Assembly (NCBI GenBank): GCA_029556545.1
Contig: JAKQEQ010000130.1
Location: 1-64,000, forward strand
Length of the DNA: 64,000 nt
From: Candidatus Hydrogenedentota bacterium
GTDB lineage: Bacteria > Hydrogenedentota > Hydrogenedentia > Hydrogenedentales > JAGMZX01
Direction of reading: 5' to 3'
Part shown: piece by piece, positions 1,709-59,544 of the stretch
How the letters are laid out: each line of letters begins with the position of its first letter
How positions within the stretch are numbered: the first letter of the stretch is position 1
Notes under the pieces: model-generated
The model's input: the letters and a program-made list of their open reading frames with translations, nothing else
What the model was told of the DNA's origin: nothing
Database searches by the model: none
Program-made: the position numbers and the translations under genes

Positions 1709-4453
1709 TCAACCCGCGATCTGGAGCACCTTCGTGCATTCCTCGCCGAACTGGCTGATGACGCGCACGGCAATCTTGTGTCCTTTTCCACGAATGAGGA
1801 TGGGATGCGAGCGGTGGCCGTAGACGCGGGCGAACGCGTCATCATCGATCTCGATCTTGAGGGTCTGTTCGGCCTTGCGCTTGGCGCCGGCTTCAGCAAG
1901 GCGCGATAATCCCCTCTTCCAGTCGTTGAACTCGTCCTTGTCGCCGCCGCAAAAAAGGATTTGCCGCACGATGAAGTTGCCGCCGTCGTAGTCGTCGTCG
2001 ACCATCCAATAGGCGATGTCCGCGGCATCGCGGGCCTTCACCTCGTCGCGTATCGGGTCGTAGATATCCAATCCGCAAATTTCCACCTCGACCTGCTTTC
2101 CCTTCTTGTGCAATTTGATATCCGGTTCGCCGATGGTGACGAACGAGGCGGCTTTCTTGTCTTTTTTCAGGAGTCCGTCCTGCATCAGGTCGTCATGCAT
2201 TCGGACTTTCGTCACCTCGAACCCGCCCATGCTGGTGGTCACGCTCTGGTTCTCGATGTTGCTCTCGAACGAAAAACCGAGAATGATGAGCCAGTCCGCG
2301 TCGCCGCGGGTACGGCATTCCTTGATCGCCTCGTTCACGGCCTGGCGGCTCACGGTACCGAATTTCGGGCCGATGTGGATATACGCCTTTTTCTCGACGA
2401 GCTTTGTGGAAGCGCCCTCCCGGCCGCTGGAGGATACGCGGCGGGACGCCGCGTCTTTGGCCGCGCCCAGGTAGAAGCCCTCCGCGTGCAGGTAGGCGCT
2501 CGAAAGCCGGTCGACGCGAATGAATACGGCTTGTTCGTTGCGGATGCCGTTCTTCACGCCGGCGGATTTGAGGTGCTCGAAGATGCGCTGCTCGAACAGT
2601 TCGAGTTCGCCGGGCTCCGGCGTCTCCCGGTCGAGCAACGCCGGCGCCACCGGCTCGAAGTTCTGGAGCGTTTCGACCGTAAACGGGCCGGACACGCGCA
2701 ACTTCTTCTTGTCCTCCATCGGCTGATCGTACAGCGTCTCCTCATCCGGCGGTTCCCCTTTTGCGAGATGCTCGAGTTTGATGTGCGGCACTTTCTTGTA
2801 CAGGAAGCCTTGGCGGATATCCTCGCCCTCCTCGTCATACAGCTTATAGTACGGGAACGTCGCGGTAAGCAGCCGCGTCTTCGCGATATTCAGCGCAATC
2901 CGCGACGTGTCAATCGTGATCCACCGCCGGCCCCATTGCTCCGCCACATACGCCGTCGTGCCCGATCCACACGTCGGATCGAGAACCAAGTCGCCCGGAT
3001 CGGTTGTCATCAGGAGGCAACGCTGAATGATTTTTTCAGAAGTTTGCACGACGTATTTTCTGTCAGATGAACCTCCGGTGTCTGTCCAATTGTTGCCCAC
3101 GGGAAAAACAGGGAAGTCTTCAAAATAACGGACAAAGGCCAAGTTTTGACCTTGGGCTATGACACGCCCCATCTGAACGAGGCGCTCCATTGCGTCTCTT
3201 CCCGTTGTCCAACCGCGCGTTCCAGGAGGGAAGTATTCACGTCCTTCCACCACCACGGGGAAATGCATTGCTGAACCCGGTCCTGATGCCCGTCCCTGCC
3301 TCTGAGAGGAAATGTCCCCAAGACGAAACACCTTCGCTCCTCTCGGTAAAGTGCCTGAGTTGGCCCGCTCTTCGTCCGTTAAACGTCTTTTCTCGCCTGT
3401 GGGAAGTTCCACATACTGGTACATGGTGCCCCCTTGCCCGCCGACCTCCTTTTCAAGGAAAAGCTGGCGATACTTCAGGTAGCGGAGTTCTTTGGCATAC
3501 CAAAGAACATAGTCAACGGTACCGGCCAGGTATCGTGCTGTCTGGCCAGCCGTCTTCTGCACAGTAATCAATGCAATGAAGTTCCCGCTGCCAAACACCT
3601 CGTCCATGAGGCATCGGACGAGGTGAACGTTTTCGTCGGAGATTTGGACGAAGCAGGAGCCGGATTCGGTGAGGAGTTCGCGTGCGACGAGGAGGCGTTC
3701 GCGGAGGTAGGCGAGGTAGGAGTGGATGCCGAGTTCCCAGGTGTCGCGGTAGGCCTTGATTTGCTCGGGCTCGCCGGAGAGGTCGTCGTCGCTGCCGTCC
3801 TTGACGGTGCGGTTGTTGAGTTTCATTTGCCAGTTCGAGCCGTATTTGATGCCGTACGGCGGATCGATGTAGACCATCTGGACCTTTCCGGCCATGCCTT
3901 CGCGTTCGAGGAGCGAGGTCATGACGAGGAGGCTGTCGCCCTGGATGAGTCGGTTGGTCCAGCCGTCGGCGTGTTCGTAGTATTCGGAGACCTTGTCGAT
4001 CTCGTCGAGTTGCAGGCCGTTGCCGAAGAGTTCGAATAGGTTGAGCTGGTGTTCGGGGGCCTCCTTGAGCGCGTAGAGGCGGCGCATGATGACTTCGGGC
4101 GAGACGTGTTCGTGGCGGTAGAGCGAGCGGATATCGATGGCGAGCCGTTCGTCGAGCGCGGCCTCGCCGGGATTGAGGATGGCGTCCTTGAGGGCGCGGA
4201 CATATTCGAGGGCGGGGCCGGTGGCGGTCTTTTCGAGCGCGGCGAGGGCCTCCGCGATTTCGCGGTCGCGCCGGTGTTTGTGCATCCAGAACAGTTCAGG
4301 GTCACGCCCGCGTTCGAGGATGGGGTTGAGGGGGAGGGCGGTGCGAAGGCGTCCTTTGCGTACGGCGGGGCTGGCCTGTTCGGCGCCGGCCTCCTCGGTC
4401 GAGGGGATGAGGGCGCGTTTGTTTTTCCCGTGTTTGATGGATTTGATCGACAT
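1709..4453 (-). CDS. mod: Type III restriction-modification DNA methyltransferase (Mod), 914 aa
   Basis: This is an adenine-specific beta-class DNA methyltransferase, because catalytic motif IV (YIDPPYG, about residue 196) comes before the AdoMet-binding motif I ([10 protein letters not shown], about residue 490). The target recognition region should lie between the two motifs. The protein is long for Mod (usually 550-700 aa); the extra C-terminal 350 residues contain a second folded region with [11 protein letters not shown] near its middle. It is the last gene of the operon res - zeta kinase - small protein - mod, and a 53-bp gap containing part of a palindromic repeat precedes it. In type III systems Mod both methylates and gives sequence specificity to Res. 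The DPPY and CGSGT motifs are intact, so activity is likely. Confidence 0.9.
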
Positions 4454-44070: not shown

Positions 44071-46998
44071 ATGCGCAGGACAGGTCTTACGATGAATGTA
44101 CTGTTGACGAGTTTCCTCTTCGCGGCGGTGAACGCGCCGGGCGCGTCGCCGACGGCGTGGCGGGCATCATGGATTTGGGCGCAACGCGATCGTTACGACG
44201 GCTACAACGACACAATCGAGGCGCGCCGCGTCTTCGAGTTGGGCGAGTTCGCCTCGGCGACGCTGCGCATTACCGCGGACAGTTACTACCGCCTCTATAT
44301 CAACGGCGAGTGGGTGAATGACGGCCCGTGCCGCAGTTGGCCGAACCACTACCAATACGATGTGATTGACGTGACGTCGTACTGCCGCGCGGGCGTCAAT
44401 GAGATTCGCGTCATCGTGAAGTTCTATGGTATCGGTACGTTCCATCAGGCGCCCGTTGAGGCGGGGCTGCTGGCGCAACTCGACGTGGCCGACGCTCAAG
44501 GCAACGTTAGCGCCGTCATGACGACGGACGCGAGTTGGGAAGTGCGCGACGCGACGGCGTGGGCGCGATGGGCGCCGAAACGCACCGTGCAGATGGACCT
44601 GTACGAGACATACGACGCGCGAAACGAAGACGGCGGCGCGTTTACGCCCGCCGTGGCGCGCTACGCGGCGGAGGCCGGGCCGTGGCGCGACTTGAACCCG
44701 CGCGATTGCCCGCTGCTCACGCGCGAGCCTTTCGCCATGCGCGCGTTCGCGCAGGCAAGCGTGGTGGCAAGGCCGGAATGGCGATCGTTCGTGTTTCCGA
44801 CCGCCGCGTTTGCCCGGGACAGCGTCGCGACGGCGAATAATCAGAGCATGAACACGGGCCTTTACGCCACGGTGCTCGAACTCGATGAACCGGCGACGGT
44901 CAAGTTCGATACCGACGGCAACCGCGTGATTGTGGACGGTAAAGACGGCAGAAACGGGCGGTTCAAGCTCGAAGCGGGCCGTCATTTCGTGTTGGTGCTG
45001 CTTTCGCAGTACTTCGGCCATTGGCGCACGGACACGGTGCTCCATGTCGAGTCGAGGGCTGCGTACACGCTGCATCATCCCGTGAATGACGCCGAGGATG
45101 CGCCATGGTGCTACGCGCGCGTCGATGGCGGCGACTTCCAGGCCGCCGACTATGTATGGGCGCTCATGCCCGAGGAGAAACGCCGTGCGGCGCGCGAGCG
45201 GGTGGACAAGGCGCTCGAGGACTGCGCCGCGAACGCCGGGACGCTCGACGGGTTTCGCGCGAGATTCGGCGCGTCGGCGCGCACCGTGGGCGCGGACCAG
45301 GTTACGGAGGACGTGCACGGCATGTTCCGCGAACGGCGGGTGATCACGGAGGCGACCGCGCGGGTCGAGCGGCCGGAGGCGATGCTCGAAGGCGGCGCGG
45401 GCGAGACGGTGATTTATCCGGCGGCGGACGGCGACGTGGAACTCGTCTACGACTTGGGCGAACAGAACTGCGGCTACTGGCAATTCGAGGTCGAAGCGGA
45501 GGCAGGCCTGACCGTCGATCTCGCCGCCGTCGAATACATCACGCCCACCGGGCGGGTCCAGCACACGGACCGCTACCGCAACAGCATGCGCTACGTCTGC
45601 AAGGAAGGCGAAAACGTCTTCATGAGCCTGGTGCGCCGTTCGGGGCGGTACCTCTTTCTCACGTTTCGCGGCTTGACCCGGCCCGCGACGTTGCGCAGGT
45701 TGCGGCTGATCGAGTCAACGTATCCTGTCGAGCCCGTGGGCCGCTTCGAGGCGTCCGACGCGCGCCTCACGCGCATTTGGGAAATCTCGGCGCGCACGCT
45801 CAAGCTGTGCATGGAGGACTCTTTTACCGATTGCCCGCTCTATGAACAGACCTTGTGGGTGGGCGACGCGCGCAACGAGGCCGTCTTCGGCTACACGGCC
45901 TTCGGCGCGGCGGACCTTGCGCGGCGCTGCGCAAAACTCACGGCCTACTCGCTCGAAGAACACCCAATCGCGCTGTGCCAGGTGCCGACGACGTGGGAGA
46001 CACTGCTGCCGGCCTGGAGCTTCCTCTGGGGGATCATGGTCTGGGATTACTATTACTACACGGGCGACGCGGAATTTCTGGCGTGGGCGCATCCCTACGT
46101 TATCAAGAACCTGGAGGGCGCGGAACGGTTCAGCGACGCGCGCGGGCTCTTCAGCGGCCCGTTCTGGAACATGTTCGACTGGACGGAGATCGACGACGGC
46201 CACGCCACCGTGACGCATAACAGCATGTTCGTGGTCGGCGCGCTCGACGCGGCCATTCGCTGCGGCGAGACGCTCGGCGACACAAAACACCTCGATTGGC
46301 TTCGGGGGTATCGTGCGAAGATGATTGACGCCGTCAACGGCCTGTGGGACGCGCAGCGCGACTGGTATCCGGACAGCGTCCACGGCGACGGGGCGATCAG
46401 CCCGAAGATCTGCGTCCACACGGGCTTTCTCGGGCTCTTGTACGATATCGTGCCCCAGGAACGACGTGCGGAGGTGCTCGCGAAAGTGCTTGCGCCGCCC
46501 GAGGGCATGACGCAACTCGGCTCGCCGTTCGCCGCCCTGTACCTGCTCGAAGCGCTCGAGAAAGAGGGGCGCAACGACGAGATTATCCGGCTGATTTATC
46601 AATACTACCAGCCGATGCTCGACTTGGGCGCGACCACGGTATGGGAGTCGTTCGCGGAGGGCAACATCGGGCGCGACCAGTTCCCGACGCGCAGCCACTG
46701 CCACGCCTGGTCGTCCGCGCCGATTCATTTCCTGAACCGTATTGTCCTCGGCATCGTGCCCGCCGCCGTCGGCGGCGCGTCCTATCGGATCAGCCCGCGT
46801 CCGAGCGGCTTGGAATGGGCGCGCGGCGCGAGCGCGTCGGTCCGCGGCCCGATCGAGGTCTCGTGGGTTCGTGACGGCGACACGCTGATTATTGAGGCGA
46901 CCGCGCCCGAAGGCGTGACGTTGCACTACGAACCGAACGACGCCCTCGCGGGGCTCGAAGTGGTGTTCAAGCGGATTTCAGCGGCCGAACCGAAGTGA
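44071..46998 (+). CDS. Exported GH78-type alpha-L-rhamnosidase-like protein, 975 aa
   Basis: After a signal peptide, the domain order is beta-sandwich (RASWIWAQRD... and YYRLYINGEWVNDGPCRSW), further beta domains, a catalytic (alpha/alpha)6 barrel and a C-terminal beta-sandwich. Three acidic residues of the GH78 active site line up within DCPLYEQTLWVGD (about residues 585-600): the D, E and final D have the same 5- and 12-residue spacing as in characterised bacterial rhamnosidases. A fourth, Glu, is in TTVWESFAEG. The usual R-x-E-R-x-G-W part is altered to YEQTLWVGD, so the substrate may differ. AGGAAGGG precedes ATG 44071. Confidence 0.82.
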   Translation: MRRTGLTMNVLLTSFLFAAVNAPGASPTAWRASWIWAQRDRYDGYNDTIEARRVFELGEFASATLRITADSYYRLYINGEWVNDGPCRSWPNHYQYDVIDVTSYCRAGVNEIRVIVKFYGIGTFHQAPVEAGLLAQLDVADAQGNVSAVMTTDASWEVRDATAWARWAPKRTVQMDLYETYDARNEDGGAFTPAVARYAAEAGPWRDLNPRDCPLLTREPFAMRAFAQASVVARPEWRSFVFPTAAFARDSVATANNQSMNTGLYATVLELDEPATVKFDTDGNRVIVDGKDGRNGRFKLEAGRHFVLVLLSQYFGHWRTDTVLHVESRAAYTLHHPVNDAEDAPWCYARVDGGDFQAADYVWALMPEEKRRAARERVDKALEDCAANAGTLDGFRARFGASARTVGADQVTEDVHGMFRERRVITEATARVERPEAMLEGGAGETVIYPAADGDVELVYDLGEQNCGYWQFEVEAEAGLTVDLAAVEYITPTGRVQHTDRYRNSMRYVCKEGENVFMSLVRRSGRYLFLTFRGLTRPATLRRLRLIESTYPVEPVGRFEASDARLTRIWEISARTLKLCMEDSFTDCPLYEQTLWVGDARNEAVFGYTAFGAADLARRCAKLTAYSLEEHPIALCQVPTTWETLLPAWSFLWGIMVWDYYYYTGDAEFLAWAHPYVIKNLEGAERFSDARGLFSGPFWNMFDWTEIDDGHATVTHNSMFVVGALDAAIRCGETLGDTKHLDWLRGYRAKMIDAVNGLWDAQRDWYPDSVHGDGAISPKICVHTGFLGLLYDIVPQERRAEVLAKVLAPPEGMTQLGSPFAALYLLEALEKEGRNDEIIRLIYQYYQPMLDLGATTVWESFAEGNIGRDQFPTRSHCHAWSSAPIHFLNRIVLGIVPAAVGGASYRISPRPSGLEWARGASASVRGPIEVSWVRDGDTLIIEATAPEGVTLHYEPNDALAGLEVVFKRISAAEPK

Positions 46999-47010
46999 CG
47001 CCAATTACGC

Positions 47011-47028
47011 TGTCGGACCAGTCCGACA
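47011..47028. repeat. 8-bp-arm palindrome at the start of the 9-mer array
   Basis: TGTCGGAC-CA-GTCCGACA, between the convergent GH78 and GH28-type genes. It may act as a bidirectional transcript end, but no T-run is present. Confidence 0.6.
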
Positions 47029-47092
47029 GGTGCGACGGGTGCGACGGGTGCGACAGGTCCGACAGGTCCGACGGGTCCGACGGGTCTGACCG
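47021..47092. repeat. 9-bp tandem repeat, eight units
   Basis: Units follow the consensus GT(C/G)CGAC(G/A)G: GTCCGACAG, GTGCGACGG twice, GTGCGACAG, GTCCGACAG, GTCCGACGG twice, GTCTGACCG. If translated it gives Pro-Val-Gly or Asp/Ser/Cys triplets, but neither frame has a ribosome site. Confidence 0.85.
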
Positions 47093-47118: not shown

Positions 47119-48675
47119 TCAGGGCGTCGCGCCGTGCTCCGCCGGCGCCGGGCGGCCGTCCACCAGCGCGTCCGGCGCATCCTTGAGCAGCATCAGCGGC
47201 GCGCCGTCCGCGCTTTGCCGCGCGGTGAAGCCGTCGATGCGCAATCCCCGCACGTTCTCACAGTAGAGGGCGAGTCCAGGTTCGCCAGGCTCCGAGGGGG
47301 CGGGCGCGCCGTCGTCATCCGGCCACGCGACGTCGCGGTAGACGTCCGTGGTGATCCGCCAGAAATCATCGGCATAGGTGAAATCGATGTTGCGCAAGGC
47401 CAGACCTTCCACGTGACGACAGAATAGACCGTAGGCCGGCAGCGTGCGGAACATGAGCGCCTCGGGGTAGACCCGCGCGAGTTCCATGACCGGCTTATCC
47501 ACGGGGTGCGGCGCGTTCCCGCCGACGAACGCGACCCGGATATCCGAAAGGGTGACGCCCTGAACGCGGGCATCCGGGATGCCCGTGACGCTGCACGCGA
47601 ACGACGCGCGCGTGGCGACGATGTTGCTGATGCTTACGTTGCGCAGCGCGCCCGGCACGGGCGTCTCCATGTCGCGGCCTCGATTTCCGAGGCGGATGAA
47701 GATGGGCGCGCGCACGCGGTCCATCGTGATGTTCGACACGACCACGCCGTCGAGATCGCCGCCGTCCACCGATTCGAGGGCGATTCCCGAAATGGCGGGT
47801 CGATTGTCGCGATATCCGGTGATGACGCAGTTGCTCACGGCGATTCGCTTGAAGCCGCCGCCGGACTCGGTGCCGAGTTTGAACCCGTTGCATACGGTCG
47901 AGAGGACGCAGTTCGTGACGGTGATGTTCTCGCAAGCCCGGCGTTCGCCCAGCGAGAAGCTGGCCTTCGGCACGATGGCGTCGTCGATGCTCTCGATGCG
48001 GCAATTCGAGATGCGCACGTTCCGGCACGAGTCCGGGTCGATGCCGTCGCAGTACCCATTGAGGATCGTGACGCCGTCGATATGGACGTCGTCGGTTCCG
48101 AGCAGGCTGATCGTGTAATTCGGCGCGTTCAGGATGTGGATATCGCGGATGCTCACGAACCGACATCGGCGCAACGCGATGGGCTTTGGACCGCCGCGCC
48201 GCGTGAAGTTCGCGTCGATGAGGCCGCCGCCCACGATGGCGACGTGTTCGAGACCCTCGCCGAACAACAGCGCATGACGGAAGAATGAGGTCTCGTGGTC
48301 GGCGTCGTTCTTGAATCCGAGTTCCTCATAGGGATCGTAGTCGTCCCGATTGTCGCTGCCGAGCAGCGTCGCGCCCTGCTCGAGGCGCAGCGCCATGCGG
48401 CTCCGCAAATGCAGCGTGGCGCTGCGGTAGACGCCCGGCGAAAACAGCACCGTCCCCCCTGTCTCGCCGCAGGCGTCGATGGCCCGCTGTACGGCCGCCG
48501 TGTCGTCCGTTACGCCGTCGCCGACGGCGCCGTGTGCGCGAACGTCGTGCATCCCCTCTCCCCGAGGGAGAGGGTCAGGGTGAGGGTTTTCGCCCATTGC
48601 GATAGGAGAAAGGACGAAAGGGGCCAAAAGGACCAAAAGGACAGAGAACGATTGCGGGGTGCGCGTCACGTTCAT
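47119..48675 (-). CDS. Exported GH28/pectate-lyase-superfamily beta-helix protein, 518 aa
   Basis: The N-terminal part (VRAHGAVGDGVTDDTAAVQRAI, quoted in part as GAVGDGVTDDTAA) is the standard opening of polygalacturonase and pectate-lyase-3-type helices. Repeating turns follow: HIDGVTILNGYCDGIDPDSCRNV, then SIDDAIVPK where GH28 has its catalytic Asp pair. Thus DGIDPDS and IDDAI are the likely active site. The expected role is cleavage of pectic or rhamnogalacturonan-type glycans. The signal peptide (FSVLLVLLAPFVLSPIAMG) is followed by NPHPDPLPRGEG, the translation of a repeat (48553-48586). ATG 48675 overlaps the upstream stop by 4 bp and has GGGGAG before it. Confidence 0.82.
   Translation of the reverse strand: MNVTRTPQSFSVLLVLLAPFVLSPIAMGENPHPDPLPRGEGMHDVRAHGAVGDGVTDDTAAVQRAIDACGETGGTVLFSPGVYRSATLHLRSRMALRLEQGATLLGSDNRDDYDPYEELGFKNDADHETSFFRHALLFGEGLEHVAIVGGGLIDANFTRRGGPKPIALRRCRFVSIRDIHILNAPNYTISLLGTDDVHIDGVTILNGYCDGIDPDSCRNVRISNCRIESIDDAIVPKASFSLGERRACENITVTNCVLSTVCNGFKLGTESGGGFKRIAVSNCVITGYRDNRPAISGIALESVDGGDLDGVVVSNITMDRVRAPIFIRLGNRGRDMETPVPGALRNVSISNIVATRASFACSVTGIPDARVQGVTLSDIRVAFVGGNAPHPVDKPVMELARVYPEALMFRTLPAYGLFCRHVEGLALRNIDFTYADDFWRITTDVYRDVAWPDDDGAPAPSEPGEPGLALYCENVRGLRIDGFTARQSADGAPLMLLKDAPDALVDGRPAPAEHGATP
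48553..48586. repeat. REP-type palindromic repeat inside a coding region
   Basis: A CCCCTCTCCC-CGAG-GGAGAGGG-type hairpin followed by TCAGGGTGAGGG. This is the very common intergenic repeat whose translation gives P-L-P-x-G-E-G. Here it is in frame, just after the signal peptide of the GH28-type protein. Confidence 0.75.
48613..48646. repeat. 9-bp tandem repeat within a signal-peptide coding region
   Basis: Units GACGAAAGG, GGCCAAAAG, GACCAAAAG, then GACAGAG. Read on the minus strand it encodes the LLVLLAPFVL hydrophobic stretch of the GH28-type protein. Confidence 0.5.
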
Positions 48676-50030
48676 GGGGTTTCTCCCCGCGGCAAGGCGC
48701 CGAGTCGCGCGGCGAGTTCCTTCACTGTGTCGAGGACGCGCCGCTCGACGTCGTTGCGCCATTTAGCGGGCATACCGTATTCCATCTGGGCCGTTTCGCC
48801 TTCATAGCCGCCCTCGTTCAGGACGCGCACAGAAGGGATGTAACTCATGAGATCATTCGAGAAACCCATAACAAAGGTGTCGCGACCGAGCAGCCGCTTG
48901 ATGAATATGGCGTAGTCGACGACGACCTCGCCGCCGAGCGCCACGACGTTCTGCTCGCCGAGCCGCCAGAGTTGCACCGGATACGGATACGAGGTCCGCA
49001 GGGACTGGCCGGCGTCCAACTGCGCGATCATGGCTTCCGCGGCGTTCCGGTTGTGCGGGGCCGCGGTCTTTGCATACGCGACCAGTTGATCGCGCGTGGG
49101 CGGCGTCTCGAGCAGCAGTTCTTGCTCGATGTAGGCGGTCTGGAGTACGGGATCGAACGCCCGCATCGGATCGGCCAGCGCGCGCTCGACAGCGGCGGCG
49201 AGTTCCTTGCCGTACTGCTCCGCAAGCGCCACCGAACGCCGCGGCAGCGGATTCTGGTCCGCGCCGCATCCGGCGAAGAATAGCGCCGTCGCACCGGGAT
49301 GCGCCGCCTCGATCGCGATCTGCGCATAACCGGGATAATCGCCGCACCACTCGTAGCCGCTGAGCACGGTGCCGTGGCAGGCATAGCCGAACACGAGCGC
49401 CGCCACCGCGCCGTCGGCGCCCGTTACGCGCAGCACCGGCACGGCGTGGTCCACTGGTCCCTTGAAGTCGTACGTGTCGAGTATTTCCGCTTCCTTATTG
49501 TTGCGGCGGTTCACGGCGAAGCGCGTGACTCCGTTCGCGGAGGCCAATTGCGCGGGCCGCATGTCCGCGAAGGCCGCCTCTACCAGCGAAACGACCCGAT
49601 CCTCGAGGGCGTCGGAATAGCGTTTCACCTTCTCGATGCCTTGTGAATCGAGCGGATACATACACATTAGCGATTCATTAATCACCGGTCCCGAATGCGT
49701 GTGCGAGGCATTCAGGATGATCGCCGCGCGCTCGAGCCCGAGGCGATCCCGCAGCCGGTCGCGTATGCGATCGGACATGGCCTTCGGGAAGCCGAGGATA
49801 TCCGCGGTGACCAGAACCGCCTGGTTGCCAGCGGCGTCGCGCAGCGCCAGCGCCTTGATCCATAGCGGATGCAGCGCGCCCTCCGCCTCGCGATCACGCG
49901 CGGCGTAGCCGGCCAGCCACATCGGTTCCTGGGGCGTGATGTCCGCCCGGGCCACGCCCGCCATCCAGACGCCATCCGCCGCGCCGCACAGCATCGACCC
50001 GCCGAGCAAAGCCATCATGATCGTCCCCAT
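48672..50030 (-). CDS. Exported neutral/alkaline ceramidase-N-terminal-like hydrolase, 452 aa
   Basis: The opening GVARADITPQEPMWLAGYAARD and the central LNASHTHSGP (about residues 105-115) are the signature of the neutral ceramidase family, the His residues being zinc ligands; FGYACHGTVL and FAGCGADQNP supply the rest of the metal and substrate site. True ceramidases are longer (over 650 aa) and have a C-terminal domain. Short versions like this are common in planctomycete-like bacteria and probably act on other amide substrates. AAAGGA precedes the ATG by 8-9 bases. It is translationally coupled (ATGA) to the GH28-type gene. Confidence 0.82.
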   Translation of the reverse strand: MGTIMMALLGGSMLCGAADGVWMAGVARADITPQEPMWLAGYAARDREAEGALHPLWIKALALRDAAGNQAVLVTADILGFPKAMSDRIRDRLRDRLGLERAAIILNASHTHSGPVINESLMCMYPLDSQGIEKVKRYSDALEDRVVSLVEAAFADMRPAQLASANGVTRFAVNRRNNKEAEILDTYDFKGPVDHAVPVLRVTGADGAVAALVFGYACHGTVLSGYEWCGDYPGYAQIAIEAAHPGATALFFAGCGADQNPLPRRSVALAEQYGKELAAAVERALADPMRAFDPVLQTAYIEQELLLETPPTRDQLVAYAKTAAPHNRNAAEAMIAQLDAGQSLRTSYPYPVQLWRLGEQNVVALGGEVVVDYAIFIKRLLGRDTFVMGFSNDLMSYIPSVRVLNEGGYEGETAQMEYGMPAKWRNDVERRVLDTVKELAARLGALPRGETP

Positions 50031-50163
50031 GCCGGAAATCCTTTCATCTTGTACAGCGATGATCCACCCGCACGATACGAGCAGCCGCGCCGGAGAATCA
50101 AACTTACGATGGCTTTTTCTTGATAGCGACGCGATTGAAGGCTATGATGGTTCGAGAATCATA

Positions 50164-50187
50164 GGGACAAGGGACAAGGGACAAGGG
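50164..50187. repeat. Heptamer tandem repeat (GGGACAA, three and a half units)
   Basis: Three perfect GGGACAA units plus GGG in the gap before the DegT-type gene. On the other strand the unit reads CCCTTGT; compare 56401 and 59524. Confidence 0.8.
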
Positions 50188-56269: not shown

Positions 56270-56400
56270 GAACGTGAAAACTCGCGGGTACGCACCTGGC
56301 GAGACATCAAGTCGGTTTTCGGAGTAGGAGTAGGACGAGGACGAGTGTGATTACGAGGACGAGCGGTGTAGATGTATATAGATATATCACTACACTGTAA

Positions 56401-56426
56401 CCCTAAACCCTAAACCCTAAACCCTA
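56401..56426. repeat. Heptamer tandem repeat (CCCTAAA, three units plus CCCTA)
   Basis: Perfect units ending 15 bases before the ATG of the DUF6807 gene. The unit equals a plant-type telomere repeat, but the flanking genes are bacterial. Confidence 0.85.
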
Positions 56427-59503: not shown

Positions 59504-59523
59504 CCTATATACTCTCCTACTCT

Positions 59524-59544
59524 AGTCCCTAGTCCCCAGTCCCT
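59524..59544. repeat. Heptamer tandem repeat (AGTCCCT-type, three units)
   Basis: AGTCCCT, AGTCCCC, AGTCCCT; the array crosses the stop codon of ridA (59529) and reaches the TPR gene start region. Read with a shifted phase the unit is CCCTAGT. Confidence 0.75.

Follow-up and report, generated by a model that had tools for sequence, protein, structure and literature searches.

Dispersed repeat DNA in the predicted export leader of a GH28-type hydrolase gene from a Hydrogenedentota bacterium

INTRODUCTION

Can repeat DNA that is scattered between genes come to encode the export signal of an enzyme? Signal peptides tolerate widely differing sequences. A Sec signal consists of a basic start followed by a hydrophobic core, and the signal peptidase site obeys the -3/-1 rule, which calls for small residues. 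The question is raised by a GH28-type gene in the window analyzed here, a stretch of 64,000 nucleotides from a Candidatus Hydrogenedentota bacterium whose genome (referred to here as G000) is a 6.12-Mb draft, represented by one assembly of 195 contigs with 4.27% contamination. An earlier note on this DNA had proposed that the hydrophobic signal core of the gene is a 9-mer array, that the first mature residues are an in-frame REP element, and that repeats thereby created or remodeled the secretion signal. In this work, we follow these proposals through the locus itself, the repeat families of the genome, and the homologues of the gene.

RESULTS

Structure of the GH28-type locus

The features of the locus are collected in Table 1. 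The GH28-type gene matches the Pfam models Glyco_hydro_28 (1e-13) and Pect-lyase_RHGA_epim (2.4e-10) in a scan that used the longer open reading frame from 48762, and its score of 51.5 bits against PF00295 lies above the family cut-off of 22.9. GH28 enzymes are marked by catalytic aspartates and a GHG-type histidine; in a reading of the sequence by eye, CDGIDPDS and SIDDAIV are candidate sites for the aspartates, but the place of a possible GHG-type motif is taken by CNGFKLG. The most likely start of the protein is the ATG at 48675 and not the longer mechanical start at 48762. The TGA of the upstream ceramidase-type gene (48674-48672) overlaps this start codon as ATGA, and a GGGGAG upstream of the ATG is consistent with a ribosome-binding site. 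From this start, the minus strand encodes MNVTRTPQSFSVLLVLLAPFVLSPIAMGE-NPHPDPLPRGEG-MHDVRAHGAVGDG, with the reading frame open through both the array and the REP.

TABLE 1 Features of the GH28-type locus (positions within the window)
Feature	Position	Strand	Basis	Remark
GH28-type beta-helix hydrolase gene	47119..48675	minus	Pfam; ATGA overlap	518 aa from ATG at 48675
In-frame REP unit with CCCTCACCC tail	48553..48588	minus	Direct reading; not in same-genus homologue	Encodes NPHPDPLPRGEG
Perfect REP palindrome CCCTCTCCCTCGGGGAGAGGG	48554..48574	minus	Palindrome search; none expected in 100 shuffles	
Predicted Sec-type leader MNVTRTPQSFSVLLVLLAPFVLSPIAMGE	48589..48675	minus	Kyte-Doolittle; hydrophobic leaders of homologues at same place	
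9-bp tandem array, GGACCAAAA family (coding strand TTTTGGTCC-like)	48609..48642	minus	Tandem Repeats Finder	Encodes VLLVLLAPFVL
Ceramidase-type (neutral/alkaline) gene, upstream of GH28	48672..50030	minus	Pfam Ceramidase_alk, 1.5e-17	

The predicted leader has a basic residue near its start (R5) and a core with a Kyte-Doolittle mean of 3.15 over 11 residues. By eye, cleavage is probable between AMG and E, in which case the mature N-terminus would be ENPHPDPLPRGEGMHDVR or a near neighbor. We infer that the enzyme is translated from the overlapping ATG and exported through Sec.

Two repeats within the leader region

For the leader core, Tandem Repeats Finder reports 3.8 copies of a 9-bp unit with 80% matches. 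The array lies 29 bp beyond the ceramidase-type stop and, because the GH28 start overlaps that stop, it falls in the GH28 frame. It is read there as TTG GTC CTT (Leu-Val-Leu), and its 9-bp period preserves the frame, so that the array yields a hydrophobic core. A 22-base stretch of the leader matches the dispersed array pattern of G000 with zero mismatches. When the leader peptide was kept constant and its synonymous codons were resampled at the genome's own usage, the best score obtained was 28.5, and 0 of 1,000 resamplings reached the observed 3-unit score of 39.9; across the 350 gene models of the fetched G000 stretches, no other 5' end scored above 4.5. The repeat finder and the codon control both bear out the reading of the core as a 9-mer array.

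The REP unit adjoins the leader, occupying residues 30 to 41 counted from the 48675 start, and residue 42, a methionine, stands immediately after it. Its hairpin has perfect 9-bp arms, a 3-base loop, and a predicted energy of -18.4 kcal/mol as RNA, a modest excess over shuffled sequences (z of -1.67; 15 of 200 shuffles fold equally well). Read directly, the flanks are AAAACCCTCACCCTGA before and GATGCACGACGTT after, and no GTAG/CGTC tag is present at the hairpin. An Rfam identity for the locus was rejected, as all matches were below threshold (the best, whalefall-1, at 17.9 bits compared to a gathering score of 37). The interval from 48553 to 48646, which the earlier note had assigned to the two repeats, begins at the exact end of the REP unit and runs 4 bases beyond the array.

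Other short-period arrays occur in the window. A second, longer 9-bp array of 7.8 copies, GTCCGACGG (GGACC+CGTC on the other strand), lies at 47021-47090 between the convergent ends of a rhamnosidase-type gene (stop at 46998) and the GH28 gene (stop at 47119); the GH28 gene is thus flanked at both ends by 9-bp arrays. Short 7-bp arrays are found at 50163-50187 (AGGGACA, intergenic), 56399-56426 (AACCCTA), and 59522-59544 (CTAGTCC), and the 7-bp arrays at 50163-50187 and 59522-59544 have a GGGAC/GTCCC core in common with the 9-bp family.

Distribution of the repeat families

With up to 1 mismatch allowed, the array pattern gave 45 hits in G000, compared to 4 for a reversed-pattern control. These hits form 24 separate spans, 20 of which lie outside gene models built with a simple codon-based gene finder. 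A stop codon is located within 14 to 194 bp of 17 of the 20 extragenic spans, the three others being L192, L198, and L203. Of the four spans inside genes, two are coding matches unrelated to the family, one is a C-terminal tail, and one is the GH28 leader. The REP palindrome was detected 98 times in G000 at up to 2 mismatches (control, 0), and this family membership upholds the earlier identification of an in-frame REP after the leader. Exact palindromes number 42 (27 outside gene models and 15 touching one).

Both families are patchily distributed. REPs at up to 1 mismatch are present in 8 of 60 genomes, G000 included, with 75 copies in G000, 270 in G009, and 1 in G001, the genome of the same genus. 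The array pattern is no commoner than its control in many genomes, among them G001 (3 hits and 3 in the control at the stringency used). Three relatives (G037, G004, and G056) contributed 58 arrays, which represent the content of fetched stretches rather than all hits and were judged with simple gene models: 54 fall between genes, 2 at C-terminal ends, and 1 inside a gene, and 1 was called N-terminal. The gene end nearest to the 54 intergenic arrays is a stop in 35 cases and a start in 16. The N-terminal call, at L400 (offset -5), was judged to reflect a wrong start, with TTG at the array edge and an ATG 12 codons on. None of the 58 arrays was accepted as a leader, and arrays as a general source of leaders were rejected on this ground. 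The array-made GH28 leader looks like an isolated, instructive case and not a system.

Leaders of GH28 homologues

GH28 protein matches were retrieved from 51 of the 60 genomes, G000 included, many of them weak or partial family members; in a separate collection, the best named relatives are mostly Candidatus Hydrogenedentes/Hydrogenedentota. The same-genus homologue (G001, L017) shares 68% identity in the GH28 protein and 74% in the ceramidase-type neighbor, and the two genes overlap as GTGA. Its leader reads VTRPRTTALGFPPNGPLCVPLVLLVFSSLAMPLAAES-PDSR-DVRAHG, with array-like (decayed) core DNA and no REP. Upon synonymous resampling, the observed score of this leader (24.7) was reached by 1 of 2,000 sequences. 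Among 26 homologues from outside the genus (L018 to L043), no leader region had an array score above 0, and the REP arms were nowhere matched with fewer than 6 mismatches. The peptide NPHPDPLPRGEG is found at the corresponding place in 0 of the 27 homologues, and the earlier proposal is thus not refuted by its own test, which looked for the same protein sequence in orthologues lacking the DNA repeats.

Taken together, the GH28 gene of the window, its same-genus homologue, and the 26 from outside the genus provide 28 leaders, and all 28 have a strongly hydrophobic 11-residue stretch after a possible start codon, by a lenient criterion with no negative control. A ceramidase-type gene stands directly upstream of GH28 in 2 of the 26 (L030 and L036), and this shared arrangement most likely dates the gene pair to before the array. 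The hydrophobic leaders and the kept upstream gene indicate that a leader most likely predates the repeats. Of the two verbs in the earlier proposal, "remodeled" is well supported by leader DNA that belongs to two dispersed families, with the REP absent from G001 and neither repeat detected in the 26; "created" finds no support, and de novo creation of the leader was rejected on the 28 hydrophobic leaders, subject to the leniency of that criterion.

Order of events

For comparison with the leader, sites in G001 were sought beside homologues of the genes that adjoin 16 other arrays of G000. One site gave no hit and two homologues were too distant (38 and 43% identity), leaving 13 usable sites (58% or more). 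At 10 of these, the array score was within the range of shuffled sequences, 1 was borderline (5 of 100 shuffles), and 2 retained weak remnants (0 of 100), with 4-unit scores of 0.7 and -8.8. The GH28 leader of G001 gave the strongest array signal, at 15.1 (0 of 100 shuffles). The array is thus best kept where it is coding, a pattern that fits selection for the export core and is suggestive only, not proof, because array signals, weak or borderline, also persist at two or three further sites in G001.

As the G001 leader has a decayed array and no REP, the most simple order would place the array before the species split and the REP after it, the two not having arrived together. Counted from the AM that both proteins have to DVR, the stretch is 6 residues longer in G000 than in G001, not 12. 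The REP is therefore not a clean insertion relative to G001, some residues having been lost or replaced.

REPs within other genes and the Y1 transposase

The 14 other gene-touching REPs of G000 were compared with G001. At L241, a sulfatase domain protein, the REP is a clean 12-residue insertion (DPHPDPLPEGEG) that shares its reading frame with the GH28 copy. For L213, L224, L230, L228 (whose homologue has only 42% identity), and the second copy in L235, the alignment shows gaps in G001 at the REP or near it; the third L235 copy is no clean insertion. In L240 and L232, the REP is C-terminal, at a point where the G001 homologue ends or stops aligning, and that of L226 touches the gene model only at its edge, with the alignment beginning after the REP. 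L214 matches two separate frames of G001. No usable G001 homologue was found for L212 and the first copy in L235. In-frame REPs are common in G000 and known elsewhere, and that of GH28 is one among several tolerated insertions.

Three of these genes offer observations of their own. In L214:1683-4046, the REP at 2981 lies between GT2 and GT4 glycosyltransferase parts of one open frame, and the two parts match G001 separately, with 8 bp between them and not in one frame, an arrangement suggestive of gene fusion at a repeat. In L215:2943-5381, the REP at 3008 adjoins a short hydrophobic N-terminus, MAVLCCLIAPAAPQITRASIDLPLPEGEG, and the G001 residues differ there. The FAD-linked oxidase L213:1611-3419 has a 42-residue insertion relative to G001 that carries the REP together with a repeat-like peptide, GMRNAECGLSNAECG.

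The REPs of G000 share with RAYT-associated elements a short palindrome able to form a hairpin and many dispersed, mostly extragenic copies. We infer that they were spread by a Y1 (RAYT-like) transposase. Y1_Tnp matches number 5 in G000 and 3 in G001. In G001, the only REP detected at up to 1 mismatch (L257:1410-1430, C18) lies ~365 bp from a Y1_Tnp match, in the manner of a REP-transposase unit. Four Y1_Tnp loci were scanned, two from each genome; besides L257, these were L251 and L259 (among the five of G000) and L248 (G001), and all three lack a REP. In G009, a genome 93% complete, there are 270 REPs and no Y1_Tnp match. The three loci lacking a REP and the absence of Y1_Tnp from G009 argue against a simple REP-transposase link.

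DISCUSSION

From the directly observed identity, position, and frame of the repeats, and their absence from the homologues tested, we consider that the leader of a predicted secreted GH28-type enzyme has probably been rebuilt out of DNA from two dispersed repeat families. The main alternative, which we regard as unlikely, is that the repeats are an untranslated spacer. The GH28 protein would then start at the ATG that ends the REP (MHDVRAHG), the REP arm GGGGAGAGGGG would serve as the ribosome-binding site, and the enzyme would be cytoplasmic or occur in two forms. The arm does place a GGAG five bases before this ATG, a workable distance, and many N-terminal REPs are start-codon mis-annotations according to PMC3733652. 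However, this GGAG sits in the stem of the predicted -18.4 kcal/mol hairpin (z only -1.67), and the stretch that would be spacer is open, resembles a typical leader, begins at the ATGA overlap, and is preceded by a GGGGAG of its own. The G001 gene has no ATG at that place, yet it retains a hydrophobic leader in the same frame and a GTGA overlap; hydrophobic leaders in all 28 genes, by the lenient criterion used, also disfavor a spacer.

It is improbable that the array is a Leu/Val-rich leader whose codons resemble the repeat by chance, with the REP alone being a real repeat. Hydrophobic leaders are rich in leucine and valine, dispersed arrays are no more frequent in G001 than the control (3 hits each), and G000 and G001 are not independent, so that a shared ancestral leader could by chance use array-like codons. 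Such an origin is nevertheless hard to reconcile with the 22-base, zero-mismatch fit to the dispersed pattern of G000, with the resampling results (0/1,000 for G000 and 1/2,000 for G001), and with the fact that no other among the 350 gene 5' ends comes close. We give very little weight to an assembly or binning artifact in which repeats mis-joined two contigs at the GH28 leader. The assembly is a draft of 195 contigs with 4.27% contamination, but G001, a separate genome, shows the same gene order and stop/start overlap, and the reading frame runs unbroken through both repeats.

If the leader was indeed rebuilt from repeats, the ancestral GH28 gene would have had an ordinary signal peptide. The array would have replaced or overgrown the core of this leader, with Sec export retained, and a REP, carried by a RAYT-type Y1 transposase, would then have introduced a proline-rich spacer at the mature N-terminus or directly beside it. 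Insertion of the REP would have been tolerated because the linker is variable among homologues. A fuller account, which we hold tentatively and at slightly less than even strength, is that the array was exapted as the Sec core and kept by selection across speciation, during which most other array sites turned over, and that the REP later served as a new mature N-terminus. On this account, copy number would tune the length of the core with the frame preserved, each unit being three codons.

Cyanobacterial STRR repeats are short-period intergenic arrays. Intergenic short direct repeats of the unit TAACTGA are described for Beggiatoaceae in PMC4679880. The arrays studied here resemble both in being short-period arrays dispersed between genes; they differ in having a 9-bp GGACCAAAA unit, in lying often near stop codons, and in that one copy is protein-coding. 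Borg elements, as presented in PMC9879509, likewise have tandem repeats that become protein, creating new regions that are intrinsically disordered, whereas the product here is the core of an export signal.

As for the REP, PMC3733652 reports REPs inside genes of several species, with a warning about N-terminal mis-annotation. According to the summary in PMC10969869, the Rickettsia palindromic elements (RPE) of Ogata and Claverie insert in frame. As in the present case, both concern short palindromes in frame within unrelated proteins. The likeness to RPE lies, by description, in the in-frame insertion of a palindrome, the GH28 copy not being clean and the L241 copy being a clean 12 residues. 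The tag of the GTAG/CGTC REP super-families, as given in PMC3733652, is absent beside the GH28 hairpin. In contrast to intragenic REPs and RPE, the GH28 element adjoins a leader that is itself built of another repeat. Among the literature matches listed, which were mostly non-subscription, no natural signal peptide or signal core supplied by intergenic repeat DNA was found.

The GH28 gene offers an ordered series within one gene, consisting of an ordinary leader, an array leader, and an array with a REP. It illustrates how a stop/start overlap can make a repeat that usually follows a gene encode the N-terminus of the protein after it. For annotation, it counsels caution in that NPHPDPLPxGEG-like peptides of metagenome proteins can stem from repeat DNA instead of being conserved motifs.
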